The position numbers were made by a program, and so were the translations under genes. The notes under the pieces were generated by a model, which saw only the letters and a program-made list of their open reading frames with translations, made no database searches and was not told where the DNA came from. Of a stretch of 64,000 nt of DNA, positions 13,359 to 32,456 are shown piece by piece (the first letter of the stretch is position 1; each line of letters starts with the position of its first letter). The stretch is from Burkholderia metallica (lineage in GTDB: Bacteria > Pseudomonadota > Gammaproteobacteria > Burkholderiales > Burkholderiaceae): assembly GCF_902832845.1 (NCBI RefSeq), contig NZ_CADFDB010000016.1, forward strand, positions 62,001 through 126,000, written 5' to 3'.

Positions 13359-14057
13359 TCACATCGGGCGAAATACCGCGTACTGGTCGCCATCGACGTG
13401 TTCCATGTACCGCGAGTCATGGAGCGTGAGGTTGACCGGCTGGCGGTGTTTTTCGTCCGTGGCGTCCTGTCCGTCGTTGGTGCGCGTGTTGAACAGGTTC
13501 GACGCGTTCGCGGAATTCACGAGGGAATCAAGCCGCGGCGCGTGCCAGTCGAGGTGCCCTCTGAGCAGGTAGAAGTGCATGATGCCGCATTGCTGGTGCG
13601 CCCAGTAGTCATGCCACGTAAACGAATCGGGCCGCCATACGGAGTTGTGGCTCTCGAAGAACGACGCGCCGTTCATCGGCATGCACTCGGGGGTCGAGAT
13701 GATGATGTATCGCGATCGATAGTTGAGAAATTCCAGCAGATCGCGACCGTGCGAGTGACGCATGTGTTCGATGACGTCGCCCAGAATGACCGTGTCGTAC
13801 GTGTCGCCGGCTCGTTCGTAAAGCGTGTCGCTGACGGCGGACACGATGTCGTCGTAGCCGTTCTCGCGCAGGAGCGGATGTGTGTTCTCGTCGCATTCCA
13901 GCGCCGTGAAACGGCAATCCGGCACGACCTGCTTGAGCAGGCGCCCGTATTTGCCGCCTCCGGCCCCGATATCCAGAATATTCGTCGGGGCGATCGACTT
14001 GACGAGATGCTGAGTGAGCCGATCGAAGGTCGGCCACGAATACCCGATCTGTTCCAA
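13359..14057 (-). CDS. Class I SAM-dependent methyltransferase
   Basis: About 232 residues from a TTG start at 14057 with GGAG six bases upstream. The frame is open to an ATG at 14246, but that extension is Arg/Ala-rich and unlike the rest. SAM-binding motif I is ILDIGAGGGKYGRLL; the post-II region is YDTVILGDVIEHM. Resembles methyltransferases of surface-polysaccharide clusters; the substrate is unknown. It is divergent from the first DUF2827 gene, which suggests a role in the same surface-modification region. Confidence 0.75.
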   Translation of the reverse strand: MEQIGYSWPTFDRLTQHLVKSIAPTNILDIGAGGGKYGRLLKQVVPDCRFTALECDENTHPLLRENGYDDIVSAVSDTLYERAGDTYDTVILGDVIEHMRHSHGRDLLEFLNYRSRYIIISTPECMPMNGASFFESHNSVWRPDSFTWHDYWAHQQCGIMHFYLLRGHLDWHAPRLDSLVNSANASNLFNTRTNDGQDATDEKHRQPVNLTLHDSRYMEHVDGDQYAVFRPM

Positions 14058-14372
14058 GCTGATCTCCGATGACGGCGGGTTCGAGGAATCGATTGTAGTC
14101 GCTCGGCGGCGTTTACCGCCGGAAATCGCGGCGTCGGCGCAGCAGCCCGCCCTGGATGCCGCTGCCGCCCGGCACCCGGCGGCAGCCCGACGGCGCGACC
14201 GAGCCGTCTTGCTCGGATTCACCTGCGCCGGCCCCGTGCTGACCATCCCTGACAGTATGCGGCCGGCGCTCCGCTAAAATGCCGGGTTGCCGCGCGCCGC
14301 TTGACGCGGGCCGCGCATCGCGCGCTACACTGCGTTCATTCCAGCCCCATTCAATCTTCCATCCCGCCGACG

Positions 14373-15515
14373 ATGACGTCCCCTGTCCTGAACGGCCTGC
14401 GCATCGGTATCACGATCGGGCTGCGTGCCCCCGACGAAAGCCTGTGGATCAACGGCATCAAGCAGAACGCGCTGTTTCTCGCGAAGCTGCTGATGGCGTC
14501 GCCGCACGGCTACCGCGTGACGCTGGTCAACACCACCGACGTGCCGCTCACCGATGCACTGCCGTGGGATCGCAGCGTATTCGACACGCGCACGTTCGAC
14601 GACATGAAGGACGCGCTCGACGTGGTGATCGAACTCGGCGGCCAGATCAACGCGGAGCAGACGGCCTACGTGAAGGCGCGCGGCGCGAAGCTCGTCAGCT
14701 ACTGCTGCGGCGTCGAGTACATCAACGTGATGGAATCGATGCTGTTCGGCCGCCGGCTGTGGGATTCGCTGTTCATCAACCGCGGCTACGACGAGGTGTG
14801 GGCGATTCCGCAGATCGCGCCGTCGTCGCTGCCGTTCCTGCAGTCGATGCGCCGCTGCCCGGGGCGCGTCGTGCCGTTCGTGTGGGATCCGATGTTCCTG
14901 AGCGCGCGCGCCGCGTCGCTGCCCGAGCGCGGCGAGTACCGGCCGCGCAGCGAGCCCGGCAAGCGGCTGACCGTGATGGAGCCGAACCACGACGTGGTGA
15001 AGTTCTGCGTGTATCCGATGCTGATCATCGACGAAGTGTATCGGCGCGAGCCCGACGCGATCTGCTTCACGCACGTGACGAACGCCGATCGCCTCGCGCA
15101 CGGCAGCCCCGAGTTCGTGATGCTGATGAACTACCTGGACATCGTGCGTGCGGGCAAGGCGAGCTTCGTCGGGCGCTTCGAGACGCCGCTGTTCCTGGCC
15201 GACCTGACCGATATCGTCGTGTCGCACCAATGGTCGAATCCGCTCAACTATTTCTATTTCGACGTGTGCTGGCAGGGCTATCCGCTCGTGCACAACGCGA
15301 GCCTCGCCCCCGATCTCGGCTACTACTATCCGGACAACGACGTGGAGCAGGGCGCCGCGGCGCTGCTGCGCGCGCTGCATACGCACGATGACGACTGGGA
15401 AGCGTACACGCGGCGCCAGCGCGAGATCCTCGGCCGCTATACGTCGGCGAATCCGGCGCTCGTCGCCGAATATGACGCGCTGCTCGCGAGCCTGATCGGC
15501 GTGTCGGCCGCATAA
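14373..15515 (+). CDS. DUF2827 family protein, putative GT-B-like glycosyltransferase (copy 1)
   Basis: 380 residues, no signal peptide, so probably cytoplasmic. It shares with three other proteins in the window: SLWINGIKQN near the N-terminus, VVIELGGQ, YCCGVEYINVMES, MEPNHDVVKFCVYPM and the C-terminal block HQWSNPLNYFYFD, YPLVHNAS and GYYYPD. The C-terminal block looks like the donor-nucleotide half of a GT-B enzyme (inference). Followed by a clear hairpin, so probably a single transcription unit. It is the most diverged of the four copies. Confidence 0.8.
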   Translation: MTSPVLNGLRIGITIGLRAPDESLWINGIKQNALFLAKLLMASPHGYRVTLVNTTDVPLTDALPWDRSVFDTRTFDDMKDALDVVIELGGQINAEQTAYVKARGAKLVSYCCGVEYINVMESMLFGRRLWDSLFINRGYDEVWAIPQIAPSSLPFLQSMRRCPGRVVPFVWDPMFLSARAASLPERGEYRPRSEPGKRLTVMEPNHDVVKFCVYPMLIIDEVYRREPDAICFTHVTNADRLAHGSPEFVMLMNYLDIVRAGKASFVGRFETPLFLADLTDIVVSHQWSNPLNYFYFDVCWQGYPLVHNASLAPDLGYYYPDNDVEQGAAALLRALHTHDDDWEAYTRRQREILGRYTSANPALVAEYDALLASLIGVSAA

Positions 15516-15612
15516 GTCCTCCCGATTTGCTCGCGGCGCATGTCGTTGCACCGCAGCCTGCCATCGGGATTGGTCCGCCTTTATGTCTGACGAAATGGTG
15601 CCGTTAAAAAAG

Positions 15613-15644
15613 AAACCGCCGAACCCGATTGGTTCGACGGTTTT
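15613..15644 (+). terminator. Rho-independent-like terminator after DUF2827 copy 1
   Basis: Stem AAACCG-C-CGAACC paired with GGTTCG-A-CGGTTT around CGATT, ending in TTTT. One internal mismatch. Confidence 0.6.
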
Positions 15645-16303
15645 GAAGGCACGAAATTGACGGCTCCGAGGGAAGTCCGTCAGAAATCATTTTAGAGGTT
15701 AACAAGTCTTAAATATTGTTAAACATGTTTCAATCGATAATCATCATATGATTAAAGTCGATTTTATCGATTGGAAACGTCTAGATTCGGTTTCCATTTT
15801 TAATAATGGGTTTGCAGCATGGAGATTGAGTGCTGCGATGATCGAATGACGGGCGGCGGACGATCTTTGGCGCCGGATGAGCCGGCTGGCGGGCTTCGCG
15901 GCGGGCCTGGCAGCGAGTGAAGGCGATACGTCCCGAACGGCTATTTATCCGATCAATTGGATATTTCCTGATTTGCGCGATGCGTGAATGGCGGGATAAT
16001 TGATTCAGGTCAAGATGTTTAGGTAAAAAGAATAAACGGCATCTCGATCTGGATTCCGCAATTTGCGTTAGTGTGACCTGTCGCACAATCGATATCGCGC
16101 GCGTATGGTTTATTTCCACTAATTGAATATCGTTGAAAAATATCGAATTTGACGGCGCGCCGAAGCGAAAAGTACGCTCCCGGAAAAGATCGACATGACA
16201 GGATGGGCCGGGTAGGCGGCGGAGCGCGTGAAGGTCGACTTGCTCCGCAATGTTTGTTGAGGTCGAGCCGCGATTGGCGGCTCGCCATTTGCCGGAGCGC
16301 CGG
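15645..16303. other. Relatively AT-rich intergenic region upstream of the EAL gene
   Basis: No supported gene. 15690-16150 is noticeably richer in A/T than the surroundings (for example the TTAAATATTGTTAAAC and AATCATCATATGATTAAAG stretches near 15707-15756). It may hold the promoter of the EAL gene or be a relic of transfer. Confidence 0.45.
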
Positions 16304-17107
16304 ATGAATGCGGTCGAAGCTCGCCTGGAGGCGAATCGGGAAGCGCAGCGTGACGAAATCGATGTCGTGTTCGGTGCACCCGACGATCATCCCGACCTCG
16401 CGTCGGTACGCAGTTTCGTGGAAAGCCGGCTCGGGTTCGCGCAAGAGCCGGTATGCCGCGCCGACCTGTCGGGTGGTGTGCTGTACCGGGAATGCCTAGC
16501 GAGACTGCGCTGGGGCGAGCGTGACGCGCTGCCGCCGGTCGCGTTCCTGCCGCGCCTCGAGGCGCTCGGGCTGATGCGGTGGTTCGACCGGCTCGTGGTC
16601 GGCCGGACGATCGACGCGCTGCGTGCCGATCCGGCGGCCGTGTTCGGCTGCAACGTGACGGCGGCGAGCGCGGTCGTCGACGACGGGTGGCTGGCGATCT
16701 TCAGGCGGCTCGAGCGCGAGCCGTCGGTCGCGGCGCGGCTGGTGGTCGAAATCACGGAGACGGGGCCGCTGAATCCCGTCGCCGGGCGCTCGTTCGTGAA
16801 CCGCTTCCAGCGGGCCGGATGCCGGATCGCGATCGACGATTTCGGGGTCGGCTTCAGCGCGTTGAACAACCTGGTGGTCGGCAATCCCGACATCGTGAAG
16901 CTCGACCGTTCGATCCTGTCGATGATCAAGCGCAACGCGATCGGGCGCTACCAGTTCCGCAGGCTGATCGCGTTCGCGCATGAAGGGGCGCGGCACGTCG
17001 TCGTCGAAGGCGTGGAGAGCGAGAGCGACCGGCAGATCCTCGTGGACGCCGGCGTCGCGTGGGCGCAGGGCATCCGTTTTTCATGGCGGTCGCCGGCCGC
17101 CGCTTGA
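16304..17107 (+). CDS. EAL-domain protein, probable cyclic-di-GMP phosphodiesterase
   Basis: About 267 residues from ATG 16304, with GGAG six bases upstream; an in-frame ATG at 16250 has no ribosome site. A stand-alone EAL domain: the signature appears as ECLAR, followed by the NVTA asparagine, EITETG, IDDFGVGFSALNN, VKLDRS, VEGVES and AQG. The usual catalytic acidic and Lys residues are present, so activity is likely. No sensor or membrane segment. Its position next to adhesin and glycosylation-type genes suggests cyclic-di-GMP control of surface attachment (inference). Confidence 0.85.
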   Translation: MNAVEARLEANREAQRDEIDVVFGAPDDHPDLASVRSFVESRLGFAQEPVCRADLSGGVLYRECLARLRWGERDALPPVAFLPRLEALGLMRWFDRLVVGRTIDALRADPAAVFGCNVTAASAVVDDGWLAIFRRLEREPSVAARLVVEITETGPLNPVAGRSFVNRFQRAGCRIAIDDFGVGFSALNNLVVGNPDIVKLDRSILSMIKRNAIGRYQFRRLIAFAHEGARHVVVEGVESESDRQILVDAGVAWAQGIRFSWRSPAAA

Positions 17108-17199
17108 CGGCGGGGAACCGGCGAAGTGGCGTGCATGACGCACGCCGGTATCGGGCGTGGCCGGCGCGTGGCCGGGACGAATCGCAAAGGGGCGTGGGC

Positions 17200-17715: not shown

Positions 17716-19695
17716 TCAATCCTTCCCGAATCCCCCGAGCACGAACGCCATCGCGCGGTCGACCGCGTCGTCCCATTTGCCGACGTGCGCGGCGCGCACG
17801 ATCCGGATGCCCGGATAGAGCGCGGTGCGCGAGCCGGTTTCCCAGCGTGCGTCGGCTTTCGGGCTGAGCAGCAGGACGGCCGGCACGCCGAGCGCGCCGG
17901 CTAAGTGGATGTGCGCGGTGCAAGTGGTCACCACGGCGTCCAGTGCGAGCATCAGCGCCGCCAGGTCGCTGAAATCGCCGATCGCGTGATGCGGGAACGT
18001 CACCGGCAGGTCCGACTGCTCGGACTGCGCGGACAGGTCGCGATTGATGCAGTACGCGGCGTGGCCGTGCAGCCGCGTCAGCGGAGCGAGGTCGCGCAGG
18101 CTGGCCGCGCGATGGAAGCGCGCATCGCTTTCGTCGCGGCCGCGCCAGTTGAGCCCGATGCGGCGCGTGCCGGCGGCATGGCCGTCGCGCGACACGCGTT
18201 CGCGCCACGCCGCCACGTGCTCGGGCGGGCAAGACAGGTAGGGCGCCGACGATCCCGTCGGCGCCGGTGCGTAGCCGAACTCCGCGGCGAGCACCAGGAA
18301 CGAGCACCAGTAGTCGTGCGCGATCTGCGACGTGTCGACCCACGCGCCGTGTGCGCCGATGAATTCGACGTGCGGGAACGTGTGGCGCAGCAGGCCCGTC
18401 AGCGCGTCCGGCACGACGACCGTCACGTCCGTGCAGCCGAGCGTGTCGAGCGCGTGCAGGTAGCGCGCGTACTGGAGCTGGTCGCCGACCCCGCCGTAGC
18501 TGAGCACCAGCAGCCGCTTGCCCCGCAGCGGCTGGCCGCGGTAGAGCCGCTCCGTCGGCAGTCCAAACTGTGCGGCCGTCAGGACGTTTTCACTTGCAAT
18601 GGTCGCGCGGGCCGCTTCGGCGCGCCGGCCGGCGCGCAGCAGCAGCGCCGAGCGCGCCAGCTCGATGCGGCCGCGCGTCGCGTCGGGCAGCGCGTCCGTA
18701 TCGCCGAAATGTTCGAGCGCCACGAGCCCGGCGTCGGGCGCACCGGCGAAGCCGTAGCACGACGCGAGCTGCAGCGCGATCGCATCGTCGTCGAGCCCGC
18801 GGCCGCGCGCGCGTTGCCAGCGGGCGATCGCATGTCCCCACTCGCAGCGCGATTCGTGGTCGAGCGCGCGGTTCCAGTTCGCTTCGGGCGCGTCGGCATC
18901 GACGTTGGCGGCAGGCGCTGCCGGGGGCTGTATGTCGGCTTCGGCCGTCGTATCGATCGCGACCGGTTCGAGCGAGATGGTCAGCCGCTGCCGGTCCCAG
19001 CGTGCGTTCGGCACGCACAGCAGGTTCAGCGTGTCGGCCCGGTAGAACGTATAGTCGAGGCCGGCAAAGGTCGCGAGGATCGGCGCCTCGCCGACTTTCC
19101 AATATTCGATCCAGCACCACGGCAGATGTGTCTCGATCAGCCGGCGCGCGCCGCGCAGCGCATCGATCTCCATCCCCTCGACATCGAGCTTCAGGAAATC
19201 CAGCCGCGGCAGCCCGAGCGAATCGAGCGTGACGACCGGCGTCGGCGTGCCGCCTTCCGCATGCGCGTCGACGAGCGAGACCACGCCGAAGTCGGCGTCG
19301 CGCCCGTAATCGACGTCGGGCACCTTCATCGTGCCGTTGGTGCCGGCAAGTCCCATGTTCAGCAGATGCACGTTGTCGAGCTCGTTGAGCGCGAGGGTGC
19401 CGCCGAGCGCATGGCACAGCGTGCGCTGCGGCTCGAACGCGTAGACGCGGCCGCCGCGCGGGCGCAACCGATGGGCGATCGGCACGCACACGAGCCCGGC
19501 ATTCGCGCCGCCGTCCACGGCGATCGCATCGTCCGGCAATTGATCGATCACGCTCAGGATCGCGTCGAGCTCGCCCTGGATGTGCGGCCGCCCGGTCTTG
19601 ATCAGCGCCTCGGCCTGGAACGCGCAATGCCGGTTGATGACGAACGGGCCGTGAATCGAATCGATCACGACGAAATTGCGGACGGCCTGGTTCAT
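17716..19695 (-). CDS. FkbM-family methyltransferase fused to a TPR/GT9-like glycosyltransferase domain
   Basis: About 659 residues. N-terminal FkbM methyltransferase (VDGGANAGLVCVPIA, YAFEPQ, FLKLDVEGMEIDALRGA; residues about 1-240), a helical linker with TPR-like character (about 270-390), then a C-terminal half like heptosyltransferase/TPR-associated glycosyltransferases (LLVLSYGGVGDQLQYARYL, IGLNWRGRDES, CTAHIHLAGALGVPAVLLL). ATG 19695 is preferred; the open frame upstream overlaps the previous gene. Fifth and last gene of the DUF2827 operon, 25 bases after the preceding one. Confidence 0.82.
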   Translation of the reverse strand: MNQAVRNFVVIDSIHGPFVINRHCAFQAEALIKTGRPHIQGELDAILSVIDQLPDDAIAVDGGANAGLVCVPIAHRLRPRGGRVYAFEPQRTLCHALGGTLALNELDNVHLLNMGLAGTNGTMKVPDVDYGRDADFGVVSLVDAHAEGGTPTPVVTLDSLGLPRLDFLKLDVEGMEIDALRGARRLIETHLPWCWIEYWKVGEAPILATFAGLDYTFYRADTLNLLCVPNARWDRQRLTISLEPVAIDTTAEADIQPPAAPAANVDADAPEANWNRALDHESRCEWGHAIARWQRARGRGLDDDAIALQLASCYGFAGAPDAGLVALEHFGDTDALPDATRGRIELARSALLLRAGRRAEAARATIASENVLTAAQFGLPTERLYRGQPLRGKRLLVLSYGGVGDQLQYARYLHALDTLGCTDVTVVVPDALTGLLRHTFPHVEFIGAHGAWVDTSQIAHDYWCSFLVLAAEFGYAPAPTGSSAPYLSCPPEHVAAWRERVSRDGHAAGTRRIGLNWRGRDESDARFHRAASLRDLAPLTRLHGHAAYCINRDLSAQSEQSDLPVTFPHHAIGDFSDLAALMLALDAVVTTCTAHIHLAGALGVPAVLLLSPKADARWETGSRTALYPGIRIVRAAHVGKWDDAVDRAMAFVLGGFGKD

Positions 19696-19720: not shown

Positions 19721-20857
19721 TCAGCCGAGCGCGCGGTCGGCGAACAACTGCCGGATCTGCGCGGAATACGCGTGGACGTTGTGGTCGGCGAGCGCGTCGA
19801 CCTGGTGCAGGCAGCGGCGGGCCGCGGCCGCGTAGTCGTCGAGCCGCGCGTCGTGCGTCTGCGCGGCGGTCGCGATCGCACGCGCCGCGTCGAAGATCTC
19901 GAAGTCCGGGTAGTAGTAGCCGACGTCGCGCAGGAACGGCGAGTTGTGCACGAGCGGATAGTTGCCGTACAGCGCGTCGTACAGCAGGTAGTTCAGGCCG
20001 TTTTCCCAGTGATGGGACACGACGATGTCGGTGTGATGCGCGGCCCACGCGACGAACGGCGCGCGCACGTCGGCGGTCGCCTTGCCGTCGCGCACCATTT
20101 CGAGCCCGAGCGCGAGATGCTTGAAGGCGACGTTTTCCTTCTTGTCGAACGTGTTGGTCATGAACACGTGCTCGACGAGCTCCGGATGCTCGACGTAGCA
20201 CGCGTTCGCGGCAAGCATCGGCACGATCGAACTCTTCACGACGTTCAGGTTCGGTTCGAAGAACGCGATGCGCTTCGCGGTGCCGTGGTTGCGGTAGCCG
20301 AAGCGTGCCTTCAGTTCAGGATCGGCGTCGAGGCTGCGTTCGATGAAATACGGCGACCAGATGTGCGGCAGCTCGATCACCGGCGCGCGATAGACGGCCT
20401 GGAAATACGCGGCGCACGTATGCATGTGCTGCGGGTTGGTCCAGATCTCGTCGAACTGCACGCGGTTCGGGTTCGGCCGCCACTGGTTCTTCTCGAAGTT
20501 GATCGTCTCGACGGCGATCACGTAGTCGTTGCCGAAGCGGTACGACACGCACTTGCCGCCGCGCCGGCGCACGGCGTCCGTGTGGGTCGAATCGATGAAC
20601 GCGTTCATCTCGATCAGCAGGTCGGTCTGGTGGACGACGCTCGACAGCGGCCGCAGCGCGTCGCCGAACGCGTCCATCATCAGCGCTTGCGGATAGTCGG
20701 TGATGCCGTCGTCGTGCGCGAGCCAGACCTCGCCGATCAGCGGCGAGCGCTTCAGCAGCATGTACAGGTACACGCAGTGCTGGTTCGCGCCGTTGTACCA
20801 GATCGACTGGGTCGCGTCGCGCTGCACGTTCATCGTTATCGCGACATTGAGTTTCAT
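19721..20857 (-). CDS. DUF2827 family protein, putative glycosyltransferase (copy 2)
   Basis: 378 residues. Family blocks: SIWYNGANQH, LLIEMNAF, RFGNDYVIAVE, FEPNLNVVKSSIVPML, SHHWENGLNYLLYD, YPLVHNSP and GYYYPDFE. GGAG lies nine bases before ATG. Cytoplasmic by appearance. In the minus-strand operon between the DUF4019 gene (26 bases upstream) and the FkbM fusion (25 bases downstream). No enzymatic activity is known to me for DUF2827; glycosyl transfer is inferred from context and fold-like blocks. Confidence 0.82.
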   Translation of the reverse strand: MKLNVAITMNVQRDATQSIWYNGANQHCVYLYMLLKRSPLIGEVWLAHDDGITDYPQALMMDAFGDALRPLSSVVHQTDLLIEMNAFIDSTHTDAVRRRGGKCVSYRFGNDYVIAVETINFEKNQWRPNPNRVQFDEIWTNPQHMHTCAAYFQAVYRAPVIELPHIWSPYFIERSLDADPELKARFGYRNHGTAKRIAFFEPNLNVVKSSIVPMLAANACYVEHPELVEHVFMTNTFDKKENVAFKHLALGLEMVRDGKATADVRAPFVAWAAHHTDIVVSHHWENGLNYLLYDALYGNYPLVHNSPFLRDVGYYYPDFEIFDAARAIATAAQTHDARLDDYAAAARRCLHQVDALADHNVHAYSAQIRQLFADRALG

Positions 20858-20883: not shown

Positions 20884-21351
20884 TTATTGCGCGAAATTCT
20901 GCGATTGGCGCGGGACGTAGCCCGTCAGGTGCCAGCGGCCGTCGTCTTCGAGGCGGAAGCTCAGCTTCTCGAACACGGTCGCGCCGCTCGTGAGCGTCGT
21001 CGCAAAGTCGAGGTTCGCGTAGAGCCCGTCGGGCATCGCCGCGGCATTCGTGTAGCGAATGCGCGTGATCTGCGCCCAGCCGCGACGGCTGACCGCACCG
21101 ACCGACTGGCGGGCATGCTGCATGTCCGCCGCGAACTGGTCCTGCTTGATGCGCGCCTTCACGAACGCGGCGGCGTCGGTCCACACTGCGCCGTACTGAC
21201 CGGCGTCGAGCTGCTTGAACACCGTATCCGAGTCGCGGAGCAGCGCGTCGGCCGATTCGCCCGACGATTGCGCATGCGCGCAGATCGCAATCGACGCGAC
21301 GGCGCAGCCGATCAGCCATTTGGCGCGGGTGAGGGTCGTGCGTGTGCTCAT
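20884..21351 (-). CDS. DUF4019 domain protein with signal peptide
   Basis: 155 residues. N-terminal signal (WLIGCAVASIAICAHAQ, cleavage after AHA), so periplasmic or secreted. The mature part matches the DUF4019 pattern: QLDAGQYGAVWTDAA, SRRGWAQITRIRY, LDFATTLTSG and a C-terminal DGRWHLTGY strand as in NTF2-like folds. Lies inside the DUF2827 operon with 25-26-base gaps on both sides, so it is co-expressed with predicted cytoplasmic glycosyltransferases. Function unknown. Confidence 0.8.
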   Translation of the reverse strand: MSTRTTLTRAKWLIGCAVASIAICAHAQSSGESADALLRDSDTVFKQLDAGQYGAVWTDAAAFVKARIKQDQFAADMQHARQSVGAVSRRGWAQITRIRYTNAAAMPDGLYANLDFATTLTSGATVFEKLSFRLEDDGRWHLTGYVPRQSQNFAQ

Positions 21352-21376: not shown

Positions 21377-22531
21377 TCACGCGTCGCGATAGAGGGTGGC
21401 GATCGCGTCCGTATAGGCGGCGACGTTCTCGGGGTTGTAGATGCTCACGGAACTGAGCACGTGCTTCGACTGCTCGCGGTACGCGTCGAGATTCGCATCG
21501 TGCTCGGCGAACGCCTTCAGCAGCGCGCGGCCGCCGGCCTGGCAGTCGAAGTCCGGATAGAAATACCCGGCCTTGCCGAGGAACGGCGAGTTGTGGATCA
21601 GCGGGTAGTCGCCGTACAGCAGCTCGTAATACAGGTAGTTCTGCGCGTTTTCCCACGTGTGCGATACCACCGCATCGCCGTACGCGGCCATGAACTCGTA
21701 CACCGCGTAACGGCTTTCGAACGTCGTGATCCCGTGGTTCACGATGTCGAGGCTCTTCGCGAAGTGGACGAACGTCGCATGCTCCTTCAGGTGCAGCGTG
21801 TTGCACACGCGCACGAACTCGAGGAAATCGGGCTTCGCGCGATACGCTTCCTCGGCCACGAGCATCGGAATGACGCTCGTCTTCACCATGCAGATGTTCG
21901 GCTCGAACATCGTCACGCGCCAGCGCGGCTTGCCCGGCTGATAGCCGAACGACAGCCCGGCGCCGAGCGTCGCGCGCGCCTTGTCGAACAACATCGGGTG
22001 CCAGATGTGCGGGACGATCGTGACGGGTGCACGCAGGCCCGTCTGGTAATAGTGCAGGCACGAACGCTCGAATTCGGGAATCGTCCACACGGCGTCGTAC
22101 GGCGCGCCCGAGAACAGAAAACCCGACGGCTTGTCGAACATCGCGCGTTCGATGTCGATCACGTAGTCGTTGCCCACGCGCATCGTGACGACCTTGCCGC
22201 CGCGCTCGCGGAACGCGCGCAGGTAGTCCGCGCCGAATTGCGCGCTCATTTCGATCAGCACGTCGCAGCGCTGCAGCGCTTCGTCCATCGACAGCAGCGG
22301 CACGTCCCATTCGCCGAGCATCATCTGCGGATCGGCGACCTGTTCGCCGCCGTTCACCATCACCGCTTCGGCGACGAGCGGCGACTGGCGCAACAGCAGG
22401 ATCAGCAGCAGGCAGTTCTGGAAGATGCCGTTTTCCCACAGCGACTGGCCGGCGCCGCGCACGAACAGCGACACGCCGACGACGAGACGTTTGCCCTCGC
22501 CGGGCGCTTGACGGGCATTGGAGTCCGACAT
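21377..22531 (-). CDS. DUF2827 family protein, putative glycosyltransferase (copy 3)
   Basis: 384 residues. Blocks: SLWENGIFQN, VLIEMSAQ, RVGNDYVIDIE, FEPNICMVKTSVIPML, SHTWENAQNYLYYE, YPLIHNSP and GYFYPDFD. The start at 22531 is set by the MSDSNARQ N-terminus and by the tight 14-base gap to the upstream paralogue; the frame is open further but overlaps that gene. Second gene of the operon. Confidence 0.82.
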   Translation of the reverse strand: MSDSNARQAPGEGKRLVVGVSLFVRGAGQSLWENGIFQNCLLLILLLRQSPLVAEAVMVNGGEQVADPQMMLGEWDVPLLSMDEALQRCDVLIEMSAQFGADYLRAFRERGGKVVTMRVGNDYVIDIERAMFDKPSGFLFSGAPYDAVWTIPEFERSCLHYYQTGLRAPVTIVPHIWHPMLFDKARATLGAGLSFGYQPGKPRWRVTMFEPNICMVKTSVIPMLVAEEAYRAKPDFLEFVRVCNTLHLKEHATFVHFAKSLDIVNHGITTFESRYAVYEFMAAYGDAVVSHTWENAQNYLYYELLYGDYPLIHNSPFLGKAGYFYPDFDCQAGGRALLKAFAEHDANLDAYREQSKHVLSSVSIYNPENVAAYTDAIATLYRDA

Positions 22532-24100: not shown

Positions 24101-24763
24101 TCAGTGCTGCAGACGGATCTCGACGCGGCGGTTGCTGGCGCGGCCTTCGGGCGTCGCGTTGGACGCGACCGGATCGGCCTTGCCGCGGCCGGTGACCGTC
24201 AGCCCGTCGGTCTTCAGGCCGTGTGCCTTCAGGTAGGCCGCGACGGCTTCGGCGCGGCGCTTCGACAGCGCGAGATTGTAGTCGTCGCTGCCCACCGAAT
24301 CCGTGAAGCCGGTGACGGTGACCTGCGAGTACGTGTGGTCTGCGCGCTCGTTCAGCAGCCGGTCGAGCGATTCGCGCGCGGTCGGGGCGAGCGTCGCGTG
24401 GTCGGTCGCGAACAGCGCGTCGCCCGACAGGTTCACCTGTTCGACGACGGCTGCCGCCGGCGCGGCGGCCGACGCCGCTTCGGCCGGCGCCGCGCCGCAC
24501 TGGAACACGAGCGTCGCGGGATCGGATTTGTCGCGCAGCGCACGGGCCGAGTCGACGGCGCGCACCGGCTCTTCGCCGCAAATCTTGCGGGCGGCCTTCA
24601 TGCAGGTCTGCGGGCCCGACAGCAGGCCGTGGCAATCCACCTGGAAGGTCCGCACGCCGTCGCGCGGCTGCAGTTCGGAGGCGCTGAAGGTCGGGCCGGA
24701 TGCGGTCGAGCACGCGGCGAGGGCCGTTGCGGAAAGTGCGAGCGCAAGAGCGAGTTTGTTCAC
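24101..24763 (-). CDS. OmpA-family peptidoglycan-associated lipoprotein
   Basis: 220 residues. Signal with lipobox LAAC at about residues 15-18, a middle segment with Cys pairs, an Ala-rich linker and a C-terminal OmpA domain (GDALFATDHATLAP, VTGFTDSVGSDDYNLALSKR, GRGKADPVASNATPEGRASN) that should bind peptidoglycan. Directly downstream of the trimeric autotransporter gene on the same strand but separated by strong hairpins. OmpA-type genes beside Burkholderia trimeric adhesins are a known arrangement; an anchoring or assembly role is inferred. Confidence 0.88.
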   Translation of the reverse strand: MNKLALALALSATALAACSTASGPTFSASELQPRDGVRTFQVDCHGLLSGPQTCMKAARKICGEEPVRAVDSARALRDKSDPATLVFQCGAAPAEAASAAAPAAAVVEQVNLSGDALFATDHATLAPTARESLDRLLNERADHTYSQVTVTGFTDSVGSDDYNLALSKRRAEAVAAYLKAHGLKTDGLTVTGRGKADPVASNATPEGRASNRRVEIRLQH

Positions 24764-24844
24764 GGTTACTTCCTCAATGCTTGGGTTGACTGAAGCCCGC
24801 CACGGGGCGCGCGGCGGGCTCGTCCGGCCGTCGGGGCCGCCGCG

Positions 24845-24872
24845 GGCCGTCCGGCTGGCGAGCCGGACGGCC
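24845..24872 (-). terminator. Terminator of the trimeric autotransporter gene
   Basis: Perfect 12-bp stem GGCCGTCCGGCT / AGCCGGACGGCC with a 4-nt loop, starting 16 bases after the adhesin stop codon. A second GC-rich stem lies at 24794-24820. Confidence 0.6.
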
Positions 24873-24887
24873 TGGCGGCGCGACGCG

Positions 24888-27800
24888 TTACTTCCACTGG
24901 TACAGCATGCCGGCGCCGATCACCTTCTGACCGCCGCTGAAGCCGCCGTTGACCGACGCCTTCAGGTTCTCCGTGATGCGCGCCTGCATGCTGACCGCCA
25001 TCGCCTTCTGGCCGAGGAAGGTCGACGTGCCCACGCCCATCCCGAAGTTGGCGTCGCGATCGAGCTGCGGGATCGACGCCATCGCACCGACGGCCGCGAT
25101 ACCCTGCTTCGCCATCTGGTCGGTCTGCTGCAGTTGCGAACCCAGCGAGTTGATCTGCGCCTGCTGGCCCGACAGTGCCGTCGACAGCGTCGTCTGCACC
25201 TGCGTCAACTGGTTCACGTTCACCGCGTCGGTGCCTTGCGTACCCGGCGCGACGTTGATGACCTGGCGCTGCTGCGTGTCGCTGCCGACCGATACGACGT
25301 TCTGGCGGTTGCTGTCGGTCGAATTCGCGCCGATCGCCACCGAGTTCGAGCCGGCAGTGACCTTCGGCGCATCGCTGCCCGTACCGTTCATGTCGGCCGC
25401 GATGCCGTTGTTGTTGGCGGCACGCGTCTGGTTGTTGTTGATCGTCGTCGACAGCTGGTTCAACGTGTTGTTGATGTTGTTCACGCCGGTCGACAGCGAC
25501 GCCACGTTGCTGTTCGTCGTGCTCAGGCCGGTGGACAGCGAGCCGATGCCGGTCGAGGTCGACGTCGACAGCGAGTTGACGTTGCTGTTCGTCGTGCTCA
25601 GGCCCGTCGACAGCGAGTTGATCGCGGTCGAGGTCGATGTGGACAGCGACGCCACGTTGCTGTTCGTCGTGCTCAGGCCGGTGGACAGCGAGTTGATGCC
25701 CGTCGACAGCGACGCGACGTTCGACGCGGTCGACGTCGACAGCGCATTCACCGCGTTGTTCGTCGCGTTCAGCTGGCTGCCGTTGATCGCGTCCGTGCTC
25801 GTGTCGGAGATCCGGCCGGCGGCGACGTTCGTGATCTGGCGTTCCTGGCCCGGTGCGCCGACGCTCACCACGCCGACCGGCGAGTTGCCCGCGAAGAAGT
25901 ACTGGACGCCGCCGATCGTGGCGCTCGACGTCGGGTTCGCGGTGCTCGTGACCGAGTTCGCGCCGAGTGCGATCGAGTTGGCGACGTTGGCCTGCGCGTT
26001 CGTGCCGAAGGCGAGTGCGTCGGCGGCCGTGGCCTTCGCGGCCGAGCCGTAGGCCTGCGCGCCGACGGCGCTGGCCGTGGCCTGGCTGCCGAGTGCGATC
26101 GTGTTGTCGGCGAGCGCCTGGTTCGAGCTGCCGAGGGCGAGCGCGCTCGCGCCGTTGGCCGTGTTCGCGTTGCCGAGCGCCACTGCGCCGTTGCCGGTCG
26201 CCGTGTCGTTCGCGCCCATCGCCACCGCGCCGGTACCCGTTGCGATGCTCGGGTCGCCGATCGCGACTGCGCCGTCGCCGCTTGCCGTGTTGCCGGAGCC
26301 GATCGACACCGCCTTGCCGCCCGATGCCGATGCGTTCTGGCCGATCGCGACCGCGCCTGCCGTCTGCGCGTTCGAACCGTCGCCGACTGCCACGCTGCTG
26401 TTGCCGGCCGCGCTGGCGTTCGTGCCGGCTGCCAGGGCGTTGACGCCCGTCGCGCCCGTGTTGTCGTAGTTGCCTTGCTGCGTGCCGTTGTCGTTGACGC
26501 TGTAGTAGTGCGTCTTCGCGGCATTGATCGCGGTCGAGGTCGAGGTCGACAGCGAAGCGACGTTGCTGTTCGTGGTGCTCAGGCCGGTGGACAGCGAGCC
26601 GATGCCGGTCGACGTCGACGTGGACAGCGACAGGATCGTGCTGTTCGTGTTGCTCAGGCCGGTGGACAGCGAGTTGATGCCGGTCGAGGTCGAGGTCGAC
26701 AGCGACGTGATCGAGCTGTTGGCCGACGACAGGCCGGTCGAGGTCGAGGTCGACAGCGAGCTGATCGAGCTGTTAGCCGACGACAGGCCGGTCGACGTCG
26801 AGGTCGACAGCGAGCTGATCGAGCTGTTGGCCGACGACAGGCCGGTCGAGGTCGATGTGGACAGCGACGTGATCGAGCTATTAGCCGACGAGAGGCCGGT
26901 CGAAGTCGAGGTCGACAACGACGTGATCGAGCTGTTGGCCGACGAGAGGCCGGTCGAGGTCGAAGTCGACAGCGAATCGATCGAGCTGTTAGCCGAAGAC
27001 AGACCGGTCGAAGTCGAGGTCGACAGCGACGTGATCGAGCTGTTGGCCGACGAAAGGCCGGTCGAGGTCGAAGTCGACAGCGAATCGATCGAGCTGTTAG
27101 CCGACGACAGGCCGGTCGACGTCGAGGTGGAAAGCGACGTGATCGAGCTGTTAGCCGACGAAAGACCCGTCGAGGTCGAGGTGGACAGCGACGTGATCGA
27201 GCTGTTAGCCGACGAAAGACCCGTCGAGGTCGAAGTCGACAACGACGTGATCGAGCTGTTGGCCGACGAGAGGCCGGTCGAAGTCGAGGTCGACAACGAA
27301 GTGATCGAGCTGTTAGCCGACGAAAGACCCGTCGAAGTCGACGTGGACAGCGACGTGATCGAACTGTTGGCAGACGAAAGACCCGTCGAGGTCGAGGTCG
27401 AGAGCGACGTGATCGAGCTGTTGGCCGACGAGAGGCCGGTCGAGGTCGAGGTCGACAGCGAATCGATCGAGCTGTTAGCCGAAGACAGCCCGGTCGAGGT
27501 CGAGGTCGACAGCGACGTGATGGAGCTATTGGCCGACGAGAGGCCAGTCGAGGTCGAGGTCGACAGCGAGGTGATCGAGCTGTTGGCCGACGAGAGGCCG
27601 GTCGAGGTCGAGGTCGACAGCGACGTGATGGAGCTATTGGCCGACGAGAGGCCAGTCGAGGTCGAGGTCGACAGCGAGGTGATCGAGCTGTTGGCCGACG
27701 AAAGGCCGGTCGAAGTCGAAGTCGACAGCGAATCGATCGAGCTGTTAGCCGACGACAGGCCGGTCGACGTCGAGGTGGACAGCGACGTGATCGAGCTGTT

Positions 27801-30800
27801 GGCCGACGAAAGACCCGTCGACGTCGAGGTCGACAGCGACGTGATCGAGCTGTTAGCCGAAGACAGACCGGTCGAGGTCGAGGTCGACAGCGACGTGATC
27901 GAGCTATTAGCCGATGAGAGACCCGTCGAGGTCGAGGTCGACAGCGACGTGATCGAGCTGTTAGCCGACGACAGGCCGGTCGAAGTCGAGGTCGACAGCG
28001 ACGTGATCGAGCTATTAGCCGACGACAGGCCGGTCGAGGTCGAGGTCGACAGCGACGTGATCGAGCTGTTAGCCGACGACAGGCCCGTCGAGGTCGAAGT
28101 CGACAACGACGTGATCGAGCTGTTGGCCGACGAGAGGCCAGTCGAAGTCGACGTGGACAGAGAGTCGATCGAGCTGTTGGCCGACGAAAGACCCGTCGAG
28201 GTCGAAGTCGACAGCGACGTGATCGAGCTGTTTGCCGACGAAAGACCCGTCGAGGTCGAGGTCGACAGCGACGTGATGGAGCTGTTTGCCGACGAAAGAC
28301 CCGTCGAAGTCGACGTGGACAGAGAGTCAATCGAGCTGTTGGCCGACGAAAGACCCGTCGAGGTCGAAGTCGACAGAGACGTGATCGAGCTGTTTGCCGA
28401 CGACAGACCGGTCGAGGTCGAGGTCGACAGCGACGTGATCGAGCTGTTTGCCGACGACAGGCCGGTCGAAGTCGAAGTCGAGAGCGACGTAATCGAGCTG
28501 TCAGCGGACGACAAGCCGGTCGACGTCGAAGTCGACAGCGAGTCGATCGAGCTGTTTGCCGACGACAGGCCGGTCGAAGTCGAAGTCGACAGCGACGTGA
28601 TCGAGCTGTTTGCCGACGAGAGGCCCGTCGAAGTCGAAGTCGACAGCGAGGTGATCGAGCTATTAGCGGACGAGAGGCCCGTCGACGTCGAGGTCGAGAG
28701 CGACGTGATCGAGCTATTAACCGACGAAAGGCCAGTCGAGGTCGAAGTCGACAACGAAGTGATCGAGCTGTTGGCCGACGACAGGCCCGTCGAGGTCGAG
28801 GTCGAGAGCGAAGTGATCGAGCTGTTAGCCGAGGACAGACCCGTCGAAGTCGAAGTCGACAACGAAGTGATCGAGCTGTTAGCCGATGACAGACCCGTCG
28901 AGGTCGACGTGGACAGCGAAGTGATCGAGCTATTAGCCGACGACAAGCCGGTCGAAGTCGAGGTCGACAGCGATGTGATCGAGCTGTTAGCCGACGAGAG
29001 GCCCGTCGACGTCGAGGTCGAGAGCGACGTGATCGAGCTATTGGCCGACGACAGGCCCGTCGAGGTCGAAGTCGACAGCGAGGTGATCGAGCTATTAGCG
29101 GACGACAGGCCCGTCGAGGTCGAGGTCGAGAGCGAAGTGATCGAGCTGTTAGCCGATGACAGACCCGTCGAAGTCGAAGTCGACAACGAAGTGATCGAGC
29201 TGTTAGCCGACGACAGACCCGTCGAGGTCGACGTGGACAGCGAAGTGATCGAGCTATTAGCCGACGACAGGCCCGTCGAGGTCGAGGTCGAGAGCGAAGT
29301 GATCGAGCTGTTAGCCGAGGACAGACCCGTTGAAGTCGAAGTCGACAACGAAGTGATCGAGCTGTTAGCCGATGACAGACCCGTCGAGGTCGACGTGGAC
29401 AGCGAAGTGATCGAGCTATTAGCCGACGACAGACCGGTCGAAGTCGACGTGGACAGCGAGGTGATCGAGCTGTTAGCCGACGAGAGGCCCGTCGACGTCG
29501 AAGTCGACAGCGATGTGATCGAGCTATTGGCCGAAGAGAGGCCGGTCGAAGTCGAAGTCGACAGCGACGTGATCGAGCTGTTAGCCGACGACAGCCCCGT
29601 CGACGTCGACGTGGACAGCGACGAAATGGCGCTGGTCGCGGAACCAACTTGTTGGGCGACCGAGTAAAGCTGGCTGCCGTTGATCGCGTCGGTACTGGTC
29701 GGCGTTACCTGGCCGGCGGCGACATTGGTGATTTGTCGCTCCTTGCCCGCGCTGCCGACGCTGACGGTGCCGGCCGGCGTGGAGCCTTGGAATCCACCGA
29801 ACGTAACGCCGTTTACAGTCGCGCTGCTCGTGCCGACGGCCGGGCCGGTCTTCGAATTGGCGCCGAGTGCCACGGAATTGCTGTCGCCGGCATTGGCGCC
29901 GTTGCCAATGGCAATCGAATCGTTGGCGCTGGCAACGGCGGCGGTGCCGATCGCGATGGCGTCGGTGCCGGACGCGGTGCTGTCGGCGCCGGTCGAGTTC
30001 GCGTGGAAATACTTGATGCCCTTGCTGTTGATGTTGTCGATCGCCGAGCCCACGCTGTTGGCCGTCGCCGTCGTGCCGTCGGCGTTGTACGTGGTGTACG
30101 CCGGCGCCGAGACTTTGCCGGTCGTCGGGTCGTACGTCGAGCCGCCGCCGAGTGCCGACGCCGTGCTGGTGCCGAGATTGTCCGTCTTGGTCGAAACCGT
30201 GCTCAAGCCGGTGGACAGCGAGTTGATGCCGGTCGAAGTCGACGTGGACAGCGAGGTGATCGAGCTGTTGGCCGACGACAGGCCGGTCGACGCGGACGTG
30301 GACAGCGAGTTGATCCCGGTCGAAGTCGACGTGGACAGCGAGGTGATCGAGCTGTTGGCCGACGACAGGCCCGTCGATGCGGACGTGGACAGCGAGTTGA
30401 TACCGGTCGAAGTCGACGTGGACAACGAAGTGATCGAGCTGTTGGCCGACGACAGACCCGTCGATGCGGACGTGGACAGCGAGTTGATGCCGGTCGAAGT
30501 CGACGTGGACAGCGACGTGATCGAGCTGTTGGCCGACGACAGGCCGGTCGATGCGGACGTGGACAGCGAGCTGATGCCGGTCGAAGCCGACGTGGACAAC
30601 GAAGTGATCGAGCTGTTAGCCGACGACAGACCCGTCGAAGCGGACGTGGACAGCGAGTTGATGCCGGTCGAAGTCGACGTGGACAGCGACGTGATCGAGC
30701 TATTGGCCGACGACAGGCCGGTCGACGCGGACGTGGACAGCGAGTTGATGCCAGTCGAAGTCGAGGTGGACAACGACGTGATCGAGCTATTGGCCGACGA

Positions 30801-32456
30801 CAGCCCCGTCGATGCGGACGTGGACAGCGAAGAGATCGAGCTGTTGGCCGACGACAGGCCGGTCGACGCGGACGTGGACAGCGAGCTGATGCCGGTCGAA
30901 GTCGACGTGGACAACGAAGAGATCGAGCTGTTAGCCGACGACAGGCCGGTCGACGCGGACGTGGACAGCGAGTTGATGCCGGTCGAAGTCGACGTCGACA
31001 GCGAAGTGATCGAGCTGTTAGCCGACGACAGGCCCGTCGATGCGGACGTCGACAGCGAGGTAACCGAGCTGTTTGCCGAGCTGATACCGGTAGACAGCGA
31101 GTTGATGCCAGTCGAAGTCGACGTGGACAGCGACGTGATCGAGCTGTTGGCCGACGACAGACCGGTCGAAGTGGACGTTGACAACGAAGTAACCGAGCTG
31201 TTAGCCGAGCTGATACCGGTAGACAGCGAGTTGATGCCAGTCGAAGTTGACGTGGACAGCGACGTGATCGAGCTTGTGGCCGACGACAGGCCCGTCGACG
31301 TGGAGGTCGACAGCGAAGTAATCGAGCTTTTTGCCGAGCTGATGCCGGTAGACAGCGAGTTGATACCAGTCGAAGTCGAGGTGGACAGCGAAGTGATCGA
31401 GCTGTTAGCCGACGACAGGCCAGTCGACGTGGAGGTCGACAGCGAGGTGACCGAACTGTTGGTCGAGCTCAGGCCAGTGGACAGCGAGCTGATGCCGGTC
31501 GAAGCCGACGTCGACAGGCTGCTGATCGCGCTCGTCGTCACGCTCATCCCGGTGCTGAGCTGGGAGACGGTGACGGCATCCTGCGGCGCCGAGCCGTCGG
31601 CGACGTTCGTGATACGGCGCAGTGCCGTTGAGCTGCCGACCGAAACTTCCGACAGTGGCGCAGCGCTGCCCGTCAGATAGCCCGTTCCCGCCGGCGCGGC
31701 CGTGCCGGTCACGCTTCCCGCGCCGATCGCGACGCTGGACGCGTAATTGGCCGTGCTGCTTGCGCCGAGCGCCAGGGAGTTGGTGCCGGCGGCCGTCGCG
31801 CCATAGCCGAGGGCGGACGCGCCAGCACCACCCGCCGTGGCCGCCGAACCGAGCGCCGTCGCGTTGTTGCCTGCCGACGTAACGGCTGCGTTTGCACCGA
31901 TCGCGATACCCGACGTCGTCGCGGAGTTGACGTTCGAGAAGCGGCCCACCGCGATTGCATTCGTGCCTGCCGCAACCGCGCCGCCGGTGCCGGAGCTGTT
32001 GCCGCCGCCGATCGCGATTGCGCTGGAGCCTGATGCCGTGGTGTCGTTGCCGACTGCGGTTGCGCCCGTGTTCAGTGCCTTCGCGCCGGAGCCGATACCG
32101 ATTGCACTTGCGCCGGTTGCCGTCGTGGCCTGGCCGAATGCCTGCGAGTAGTTGCCCGATGCCGTCGCGTTTGCGCCGATTGCAATCGACGTTGCGCCGC
32201 TGGCCGTTGTCGTGCTGCCGTTGTTGCCCCCGATCGCGATCGCCTGGCCGCCAGTTGCGGAGACGCCGCCCCCACTATTGCCCGCCACATACTGCGCGTG
32301 CGCGACGTTGCCGGCTGTTCCCGCGACGAGCACAGCGGCTGCGACGGCCCTGACGACGGCCGACTTGTTCGGCTTTCCCCGTGCCGAATCGTGTTCCGAC
32401 GCGGCGACCCACGCGCCAAGGGCTTCGTTCCAGATCGAGCGGTATGTGCGGTTCAT
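24888..32456 (-). CDS. Giant trimeric autotransporter adhesin (YadA/Hia-type, type Vc secretion)
   Basis: 2,522 residues. N-terminal extended signal region (MNRTYRSIWNEALGAWVAAS, cleavage near AHAQ at about 54). Head 1 with YadA-like SxAxG repeats (about 60-285) and neck RRITNVADGS. Stalk 1 (about 300-750) of 29-residue units. Head 2 (about 815-900) and neck RQITNVAAG. Stalk 2 (about 936-1977) of roughly 54 units of 18 residues, STSTSTGLSSANSSI type, about two thirds Ser/Thr. Head 3 (about 1978-2230), a short stalk, another neck (RQVINVAPG) and a C-terminal YadA anchor ending MLYQWK. GGAGG lies nine bases before ATG. A surface adhesin, likely for host attachment or biofilm; the array may be mis-assembled. 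Confidence 0.95.
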   Translation of the reverse strand: MNRTYRSIWNEALGAWVAASEHDSARGKPNKSAVVRAVAAAVLVAGTAGNVAHAQYVAGNSGGGVSATGGQAIAIGGNNGSTTTASGATSIAIGANATASGNYSQAFGQATTATGASAIGIGSGAKALNTGATAVGNDTTASGSSAIAIGGGNSSGTGGAVAAGTNAIAVGRFSNVNSATTSGIAIGANAAVTSAGNNATALGSAATAGGAGASALGYGATAAGTNSLALGASSTANYASSVAIGAGSVTGTAAPAGTGYLTGSAAPLSEVSVGSSTALRRITNVADGSAPQDAVTVSQLSTGMSVTTSAISSLSTSASTGISSLSTGLSSTNSSVTSLSTSTSTGLSSANSSITSLSTSTSTGINSLSTGISSAKSSITSLSTSTSTGLSSATSSITSLSTSTSTGINSLSTGISSANSSVTSLSTSTSTGLSSANSSITSLSTSTSTGINSLSTGISSANSSVTSLSTSASTGLSSANSSITSLSTSTSTGINSLSTSASTGLSSANSSISSLSTSTSTGISSLSTSASTGLSSANSSISSLSTSASTGLSSANSSITSLSTSTSTGINSLSTSASTGLSSANSSITSLSTSTSTGINSLSTSASTGLSSANSSITSLSTSASTGISSLSTSASTGLSSANSSITSLSTSTSTGINSLSTSASTGLSSANSSITSLSTSTSTGINSLSTSASTGLSSANSSITSLSTSTSTGINSLSTSASTGLSSANSSITSLSTSTSTGINSLSTGLSTVSTKTDNLGTSTASALGGGSTYDPTTGKVSAPAYTTYNADGTTATANSVGSAIDNINSKGIKYFHANSTGADSTASGTDAIAIGTAAVASANDSIAIGNGANAGDSNSVALGANSKTGPAVGTSSATVNGVTFGGFQGSTPAGTVSVGSAGKERQITNVAAGQVTPTSTDAINGSQLYSVAQQVGSATSAISSLSTSTSTGLSSANSSITSLSTSTSTGLSSANSSITSLSTSTSTGLSSANSSITSLSTSTSTGLSSANSSITSLSTSTSTGLSSANSSITSLSTSTSTGLSSANSSITSLSTSTSTGLSSANSSITSLSTSTSTGLSSANSSITSLSTSTSTGLSSANSSITSLSTSTSTGLSSANSSITSLSTSTSTGLSSANSSITSLSTSTSTGLSSANSSITSLSTSTSTGLSSANSSITSLSTSTSTGLSSANSSITSLSTSTSTGLSSANSSITSLSTSTSTGLSSANSSITSLSTSTSTGLSSVNSSITSLSTSTSTGLSSANSSITSLSTSTSTGLSSANSSITSLSTSTSTGLSSANSSIDSLSTSTSTGLSSADSSITSLSTSTSTGLSSANSSITSLSTSTSTGLSSANSSITSLSTSTSTGLSSANSSIDSLSTSTSTGLSSANSSITSLSTSTSTGLSSANSSITSLSTSTSTGLSSANSSIDSLSTSTSTGLSSANSSITSLSTSTSTGLSSANSSITSLSTSTSTGLSSANSSITSLSTSTSTGLSSANSSITSLSTSTSTGLSSANSSITSLSTSTSTGLSSANSSITSLSTSTSTGLSSANSSITSLSTSTSTGLSSANSSIDSLSTSTSTGLSSANSSITSLSTSTSTGLSSANSSITSLSTSTSTGLSSANSSITSLSTSTSTGLSSANSSITSLSTSTSTGLSSANSSIDSLSTSTSTGLSSANSSITSLSTSTSTGLSSANSSITSLSTSTSTGLSSANSSITSLSTSTSTGLSSANSSITSLSTSTSTGLSSANSSITSLSTSTSTGLSSANSSITSLSTSTSTGLSSANSSIDSLSTSTSTGLSSANSSITSLSTSTSTGLSSANSSIDSLSTSTSTGLSSANSSITSLSTSTSTGLSSANSSITSLSTSTSTGLSSANSSISSLSTSTSTGLSSANSSISSLSTSTSTGLSSANSSITSLSTSTSTGINSLSTGLSNTNSTILSLSTSTSTGIGSLSTGLSTTNSNVASLSTSTSTAINAAKTHYYSVNDNGTQQGNYDNTGATGVNALAAGTNASAAGNSSVAVGDGSNAQTAGAVAIGQNASASGGKAVSIGSGNTASGDGAVAIGDPSIATGTGAVAMGANDTATGNGAVALGNANTANGASALALGSSNQALADNTIALGSQATASAVGAQAYGSAAKATAADALAFGTNAQANVANSIALGANSVTSTANPTSSATIGGVQYFFAGNSPVGVVSVGAPGQERQITNVAAGRISDTSTDAINGSQLNATNNAVNALSTSTASNVASLSTGINSLSTGLSTTNSNVASLSTSTSTAINSLSTGLSTTNSNVNSLSTSTSTGIGSLSTGLSTTNSNVASLSTGVNNINNTLNQLSTTINNNQTRAANNNGIAADMNGTGSDAPKVTAGSNSVAIGANSTDSNRQNVVSVGSDTQQRQVINVAPGTQGTDAVNVNQLTQVQTTLSTALSGQQAQINSLGSQLQQTDQMAKQGIAAVGAMASIPQLDRDANFGMGVGTSTFLGQKAMAVSMQARITENLKASVNGGFSGGQKVIGAGMLYQWK
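26690..29640. repeat. Tandem array of about 54 copies of a 54-bp unit (adhesin stalk 2)
   Basis: Every 54 bases a unit of the form gacagcgacgtgatcgagct ... recurs. Units differ mainly at synonymous positions. Longer blocks also repeat: a two-unit block at 27508 recurs 108 bases later, and a multi-unit block at 28781 recurs at 29105 (+324) and 29267 (+486). Likely variable in copy number. Confidence 0.92.
30205..31520. repeat. Tandem array of 87-bp units and shorter variants (adhesin stalk 1)
   Basis: The segment GAGCTGTTGGCC recurs at 30262 and 30349, an 87-base period (29 residues), built from the 54-bp unit plus a 33-bp insert encoding an INSLSTSAST-like stretch. Towards 31500 the units become irregular. 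Confidence 0.85.

Follow-up and report, generated by a model that had tools for sequence, protein, structure and literature searches.

DUF2827 genes beside a giant Ser/Thr-rich trimeric adhesin in Burkholderia metallica: a predicted O-glycosylation cassette

The window analysed here is a stretch of 64,000 nucleotides from Burkholderia metallica (contig NZ_CADFDB010000016.1, positions 62,001 to 126,000; coordinates below are positions within the stretch), taken from a genome of 7.55 Mb in 37 contigs. It carries a trimeric autotransporter adhesin (TAA) with a Ser/Thr-rich stalk and four genes of the Pfam family DUF2827 (PF10933), called D1 to D4, which the original prediction had taken for part of a possible dedicated glycosylation system of that adhesin. 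On the minus strand the genes follow one another in the order adhesin (24888..32456), OmpA-domain protein, D1 (alpha paralog, 22546..23691), D2 (beta paralog, 21377..22531), DUF4019 protein, D3 (divergent delta paralog, 19721..20857) and a fusion protein with an FkbM domain, and the plus strand carries an EAL-domain protein and D4 (gamma paralog, 14373..15515, opposite to D1-D3). Intergenic gaps were 14 to 26 nt from D1 onward (14 nt between D1 and D2), and 409 nt between the OmpA-domain gene and D1.

The adhesin, the proposed acceptor (2,522 aa), was recognised as a YadA-type TAA by its ESPR, YadA_stalk and YadA_anchor domains, all of which scored over the Pfam cut-offs. Its description as a giant protein built on some 54 copies of an 18-residue repeat with 12 Ser/Thr was borne out: Tandem Repeats Finder gave a period of 54 nt, 54.5 copies and 88% matches (26679..29623, minus strand), the 18-mer LSTSTSTGLSSANSSITS contains 12 Ser/Thr and was matched at 14 or more of 18 residues at 67 places in the adhesin, and the Ser+Thr fraction of the passenger was 0.506. 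Both primers printed in PMC7970998 for quantitative PCR of the adhesin gene BCAM2418 matched, among 95 loci, only that of B. cenocepacia NCTC13227 (L012), at 649-667 and 751-770, inside a Ser/Thr-rich open reading frame (ORF) of 2,775 aa (500-8824), behind which alpha, beta, delta and gamma genes lay in the layout of the window. This ORF and the window adhesin were identical over the first 32 residues and 92% identical over the last 230. By sequence the window adhesin is the counterpart of BCAM2418 at the same locus, a name kept to these terms because the N-terminal 320 aa, and hence the head, align at only 38% identity despite the matching ends. The passages on BCAM2418 in PMC7142374 describe serine-rich SLST repeats and suggest O-linked glycosylation in one sentence, and they do not name the flanking enzymes.

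D1 to D4 scored 367 to 529 bits on the DUF2827 profile (gathering cut-off 25), as expected from the claim of four such proteins beside the adhesin, and a fifth copy, of gamma type, was found on another contig of the genome. A tree of 86 representatives out of 244 domains contained a gamma group (with D4), two alpha groups (one with D1), a beta group (with D2) and a long-branched delta group (with D3), the last restricted to Burkholderia loci. Gene order was compared in 79 named loci, a sample drawn from the top 80 of 230 relatives and biased towards close ones; among these 80, the closest named relatives of the window genes were from Burkholderia species of the cepacia complex (lata, aenigmatica, cenocepacia and others). 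As assigned by group profiles, alpha was followed by beta on the same strand in 77 of the 79 loci, and the two lay within 300 bp in 73 (median gap between domains 81 bp), while gamma was present in 57 and delta in 26. The two loci without the full pair (L060 and L080) had one alpha with a beta fragment behind it. The ordered pair occurred in Burkholderia, Paraburkholderia, Caballeronia, Ralstonia, Variovorax, Collimonas, Hydromonas, Frateuria and a Verrucomicrobiota bin, and because its order is kept across these genera, the comparison suggests that alpha and beta function together. Four genomes (G548, G019, G117 and G161) had DUF2827 genes that were single, basal or unpaired.

The GT-B likeness proposed for DUF2827 was upheld by structure prediction, the confident model of D1 showing two Rossmann-like domains arranged as in solved GT-B enzymes. 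The best Foldseek matches of this model were transferases, with a GT-B epimerase (1v4v) also among the matches, and four residues that resemble catalytic ones (K219, E212, H293 and an acidic residue at 305) were kept in all paralog groups. By sequence the family stands apart: DUF2827 was the sole Pfam family that D1 matched with significance, no PDB chain matched the DUF2827 profile at E <= 1, and PF00534 matched none of 74 DUF2827 members at that threshold. Homology to family GT4 at the sequence level was rejected, local hhalign runs against 12 GT4-like domains from this genome giving insignificant similarity (E 0.086 and 0.15) and global runs aligning nothing useful. No strong membrane segment was found in the DUF2827 proteins, which are very probably glycosyltransferases (GTs).

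A YadA anchor on the same strand lay within 3.2 kb upstream of the DUF2827 run in 57 of the 79 named loci (within 300 bp in 25), and within 3.2 kb downstream in three, of which at least two (L060 and L079, Caballeronia or near) had the anchor directly behind a shortened DUF2827 gene, as after a deletion. Five further loci had a Ser/Thr-rich downstream frame on the same strand that ran off the locus, in two the contig ended less than 1.3 kb upstream, and all 61 anchors detected shared the strand of the DUF2827 run. Among sampled genomes (a set that overlaps with the named loci, for example G143:C54 with L037 and G139:C86 with L056), DUF2827 was present in 55 of 200 from the family and in 6 of 398 from the phylum, and YadA anchors in 122 of the 200. 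One genome outside the family (G548) had six TAA anchors and a single DUF2827 gene, which followed one of them at a distance of about 160 bp. The module also occurred on plasmids: D1 matched 18 PLSDB records (13 of them below 400 kb), and each of five inspected among these 13 (three of B. glumae, two of B. ambifaria) had a YadA anchor, alpha and beta on one strand. Four of the five were typed as conjugative, four had transposase, recombinase or integrase genes near the module, and three encoded tetratricopeptide repeat (TPR) proteins whose ends matched a GT9-like profile.

TAAs linked to DUF2827 were much richer in Ser and Thr than unlinked ones. Linked TAAs, defined by a DUF2827 gene within about 4 kb and chosen by eye from the best rows rather than by scoring all TAAs per genome (some of their ORFs being cut by contig ends), had a median Ser+Thr fraction of 0.424 (n = 22), relative to 0.221 for 33 unlinked TAAs of DUF2827-positive genomes (p 4e-8). 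Of 13 genomes that had linked as well as unlinked TAAs, 12 (all but G154) had a linked one as their richest sampled TAA, and none of 20,000 within-genome shuffles reached the difference. With a threshold of 0.35, set after this comparison and before the later genome counts, a rich TAA was found in 20 of the 25 genomes of the first positive set, and in none of 34 DUF2827-negative genomes (40 TAAs, the highest at 0.259), which made up roughly half of the 70 anchor-bearing negative genomes. Within one genus (g20), a rich TAA occurred in 4 of 5 positive genomes and in 0 of 9 negative ones from these sets (p 0.005). The prediction, fixed beforehand, that each of 13 further positive genomes would have a TAA at or above 0.35 held in eight. 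Overall, 28 of 38 scored positive genomes had a Ser/Thr-rich TAA as against 0 of 34 scored negative ones, so that the co-occurrence envisaged in the original prediction was seen for adjoining adhesins and for those elsewhere in the genome, in most positive genomes and not in every one. Scoring covered 35 of the 55 positive family genomes, 22 of them from the first set and 13 from the second, and besides these G368, G548 and G569; the remaining 20 family genomes were 12 of the window's genus (including G063, with a fragment only), G041, G066, G076, G021 and G022 (broken copies), G042, whose match fell below the cut-off, and the anchor-free G117 and G161. Distant pairs were seen in three genomes: G368, with a gamma-alpha-beta run arranged as in Collimonas and no adjoining TAA, had three of seven TAAs at 0.455-0.557; G056, apparently of the Hydromonas genus, had all seven at 0.376-0.518; and in G051 a TAA of 5,424 aa, some 20 kb away from the DUF2827 genes, reached 0.559.

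Computation showed that alpha has a GT-B fold, that residues resembling catalytic ones are conserved in all paralog groups, that alpha and beta form an ordered pair, and that DUF2827 is linked to TAAs on the same strand and co-occurs with Ser/Thr-rich ones both in cis and in trans; from these results we infer the glycosyl transfer itself, Ser/Thr residues of the adhesin as its acceptor, a division of labour and a cytoplasmic site. DUF2827 proteins would be soluble cytoplasmic GT-B (GT4-like) enzymes that O-glycosylate the Ser/Thr-rich stalk repeats of TAAs before or during Sec export, acting on the unfolded adhesin. Alpha and beta would form the core as an obligate pair, either as a complex or with one priming and the other extending; gamma would add a further step, and delta, together with the FkbM fusion or TPR proteins with a GT9-like end, would be accessory. 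The site is probably cytoplasmic because strong membrane segments were not found and D1 has a GT-B fold, and the donors are probably common nucleotide sugars because no nucleotide-sugar gene (nor any polymerase or flippase gene) was present among the annotated operon genes. For this explanation as a whole, division of labour included, we estimate a probability of about 0.75.

Several observations weigh against it. The Glu-x7-Glu site of GT4 enzymes corresponded, in a weak profile alignment, to N297-x7-D/E305, with only the second acidic residue kept, and the GT4 comparison was insignificant as described above. No nearby TAA was found in 12 of the 79 named loci (five Collimonas, two Hydromonas, L026, L063, where an anchor stub was detected only with shorter frames, L071, L080 and L083), and 3 of the 55 positive family genomes had no YadA anchor at all (G021, with its broken copy, G117 and G161). 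In G117 and G161 a single DUF2827 gene scoring best with the delta profile lay behind type III secretion genes (L086:9839-10975 and L085:9945-11081, respectively); the neighbours in L085 included SPI-1-type FHIPEP, secretin, PrgH and OrgA by Pfam, and those in L086 were similar by their frames. Because these delta relatives adjoin type III secretion loci in anchor-free genomes, DUF2827 is not tied to adhesins exclusively, and the idea of a dedicated set, supported overall by fold and co-occurrence, does not extend to every relative of D3. The linked TAA of G154 was not Ser/Thr-rich, and the fifth DUF2827 copy of the window's genome lay about 20 kb from two TAAs low in Ser/Thr (0.178 and 0.221). 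Five of the 25 genomes of the first set fell under 0.35, and in three of these the ORFs were very short or truncated at a contig end. The five failures of the fixed prediction were all from one genus (g10, apparently Caballeronia): G081 and G191 had one scored TAA each (0.256 and 0.182), G132 had one at 0.202 and a stub, and in G116 and G197 nothing but stubs below a scorable length was present. These cases would fit a loss of the acceptor with the enzymes partly kept, an after-the-fact explanation. Finally, Ser/Thr-richness could be tied to DUF2827 by shared ancestry of the cassette instead of by chemistry.

Other explanations were weighed on the same evidence. A GT-B fold alone names no acceptor, and the enzymes might instead build a polysaccharide or lipopolysaccharide of the cell surface whose regulation is shared with the adhesin, the latter being a mere neighbour; the Hydromonas loci, where alpha, beta and gamma are surrounded by further GT and methyltransferase genes and no TAA adjoins them, would suit such a role. 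We regard this as unlikely, since it predicts neither the contrast between rich linked and poor unlinked TAAs nor the co-occurrence in trans, and the operon lacks annotated polymerase, flippase and nucleotide-sugar genes. Pure hitch-hiking, in which genes and adhesin share a mobile island without any functional tie, would account for the plasmid-borne modules with mobility genes close by, and yet order and strand are constant in several genera, the alpha-beta gap is short (the median of 81 bp given above) and Ser/Thr-rich TAAs also occur where TAA and DUF2827 are far apart; it receives the slightest weight here.

Two further possibilities concern the chemistry. The window adhesin has 91 N-x-S/T sequons among 181 Asn, and in Kingella an HMW1C homolog is reported to N-glycosylate a TAA, the adhesin Knh (PMC9592894), so that the enzymes might N-glycosylate stalk sequons in the same manner. 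Sequon density was, however, equal in linked and unlinked TAAs (p 0.53) although Ser+Thr differed, and D1 was significant on no Pfam family except DUF2827; N-glycosylation at sequons was rejected on the former ground, and we consider it very improbable. Equally improbable is a GT-B protein with another reaction, for example sugar-nucleotide epimerisation, or a non-catalytic stalk chaperone: the epimerase 1v4v among the structural matches and the apparently incomplete Glu-x7-Glu site point that way, but the best matches were transferases, and the retention of K219, E212, H293 and the acidic residue 305 in all groups argues against a dead enzyme.

O-glycosylation of TAA stalks by DUF2827 enzymes would resemble several known systems without coinciding with any. 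In Gram-positive bacteria, serine-rich repeat adhesins, exported by the accessory SecA2/SecY2 route, are served by GtfA and GtfB, the latter a non-catalytic partner. The likeness lies in a dedicated GT pair acting on a long Ser-rich stalk; it differs in secretion route and anchor (the window adhesin has a YadA anchor and ESPR in place of a cell-wall anchor), and all DUF2827 groups keep catalytic-like residues. SdgA and SdgB, described as heterodimers acting on Ser-Asp repeats (PMC8561734), would be the nearest functional model, although their staphylococcal adhesins belong to Gram-positive cell walls and DUF2827 has three to four old paralogs. BAHT heptosyltransferases (TibC, AAH) likewise are dedicated GTs beside an autotransporter; they were shown on AIDA-I and TibA, and DUF2827 is another family, with no match of D1-D4 to TIGR04414 at E <= 0.1 and only 15.4 bits for the FkbM fusion (cut-off 200). 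For Knh, glycosylation matters for surface level and adherence in the account of PMC9592894; the linkage there is N-linked glucose, while linked TAAs here are enriched in Ser/Thr and not in sequons. The electrophoretic mobility of the Aggregatibacter TAA EmaA is reported in PMC10233464 to shift when a sugar pathway of the O-polysaccharide is lost, a tie to O-polysaccharide synthesis and not, in that account, to adjacent dedicated GT genes.

A literature search (preprints outside its scope), judged by titles and the starts of abstracts, found no description of a DUF2827-TAA system; BCAM2418 and a glycosyltransferase were not found together in it, and the one paper found to mention DUF2827 concerned a cysteine database. 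Glycosylated adhesins with dedicated enzymes are known already (Gram-positive Ser-rich adhesins, AIDA-type autotransporters), and for TAAs the N-glycosylation and O-polysaccharide cases above; as far as the searched papers show, the enzyme family, its almost invariant pair of paralogs and a system directed at Ser/Thr-rich TAAs are new. It is fairly probable that alpha, beta and gamma represent the first dedicated multi-enzyme O-glycosylation system for TAAs, from an undescribed GT family, with its cassette on chromosomes and conjugative plasmids and several adhesins served in trans. If O-glycosylation by DUF2827 holds, a Pfam family of unknown function would gain one, the use by Burkholderiales of very long stalks of about half Ser/Thr would be explained, and the Gram-positive serine-rich-adhesin systems would have a Gram-negative counterpart. 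The published suggestion of O-glycosylation of BCAM2418 can now be tested directly, since the candidate enzymes are encoded next to it.

The remaining genes of the locus were conserved to varying degrees. In the fusion protein (17716..19695, minus strand) the FkbM methyltransferase domain proposed originally was found (E 2e-14), whereas the GT part was weak: its C-terminal GT9-like region scored 13 bits on Pfam Glyco_transf_9 (E 0.062, below the cut-off of 22), and the structure model was unusable (mean predicted local distance difference test score 49.6). Being intact in 9 of the 79 named loci, with remnants in several more, the fusion is, from its distribution, accessory. TPR proteins with ends resembling the GT9-like profile (Pfam GT9 below cut-off) recurred in cassettes (L160:20353-23997, L162:15429-17231, L022:4424-6235) and may represent a second enzyme type. 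The S-adenosylmethionine methyltransferase gene (coding part probably 13359..14057, minus strand) is real, with Pfam matches under their cut-offs; as a part of the system it was rejected, a relative being present in 3 of 84 loci, the window's own included (some loci end too early to show one), and it probably lies outside. Three genes near the locus had gone unmentioned: the OmpA-domain protein (24101..24763, minus strand; E 1e-22), downstream of the adhesin in a TpgA-like position and at 46.4 bits below the cut-off of 350 on NF047726 (TpgA); the exported DUF4019 protein (20884..21351, minus strand, 155 aa; PF13211, E 7e-25), an accessory between beta and delta with profile hits in 29 of 84 loci; and the EAL-domain protein (16304..17107, plus strand; Pfam), a possible regulator with profile hits in 32 of 84. 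At 24017-23994 one terminator-like hairpin was found, no excess over shuffles (mean 1.0). Antisense frames of up to 1,204 aa opposite the adhesin (24303-31680, plus strand) were a product of the repeat codons and misled a codon-based gene caller.

Some observations concerned outlying members of the family. In the Hydromonas loci (L089 and L090) alpha, beta and gamma were accompanied by a GMA12-type GT, by genes resembling methyltransferases and by several proteins of some 500 aa, while the seven TAAs of G056 were all Ser/Thr-rich; these loci are possibly a larger version of the system. A phage origin of DUF2827 was rejected, D1 having no tblastn match in the phage collection at E 1e-5. In the Verrucomicrobiota bin (L071:9986-12279) the alpha-beta pair lay beside a GT2 gene and an opposite-strand frame with a Ser+Thr fraction of 0.28, for which a non-TAA substrate or a binning error is possible. 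The DUF2827 gene in pieces at G021:C2:224812-225741, in a genome without YadA anchors, looked as if enzyme and substrate had been lost together. A BFVD search with model m7c7cf61ded85 gave as its top match, far above the next, a protein of Pyramimonas orientalis virus 01B (template modelling score 0.80, 19% identity, E 3e-20), perhaps, judging by the modelled structure, a DUF2827-like enzyme of an algal giant virus.

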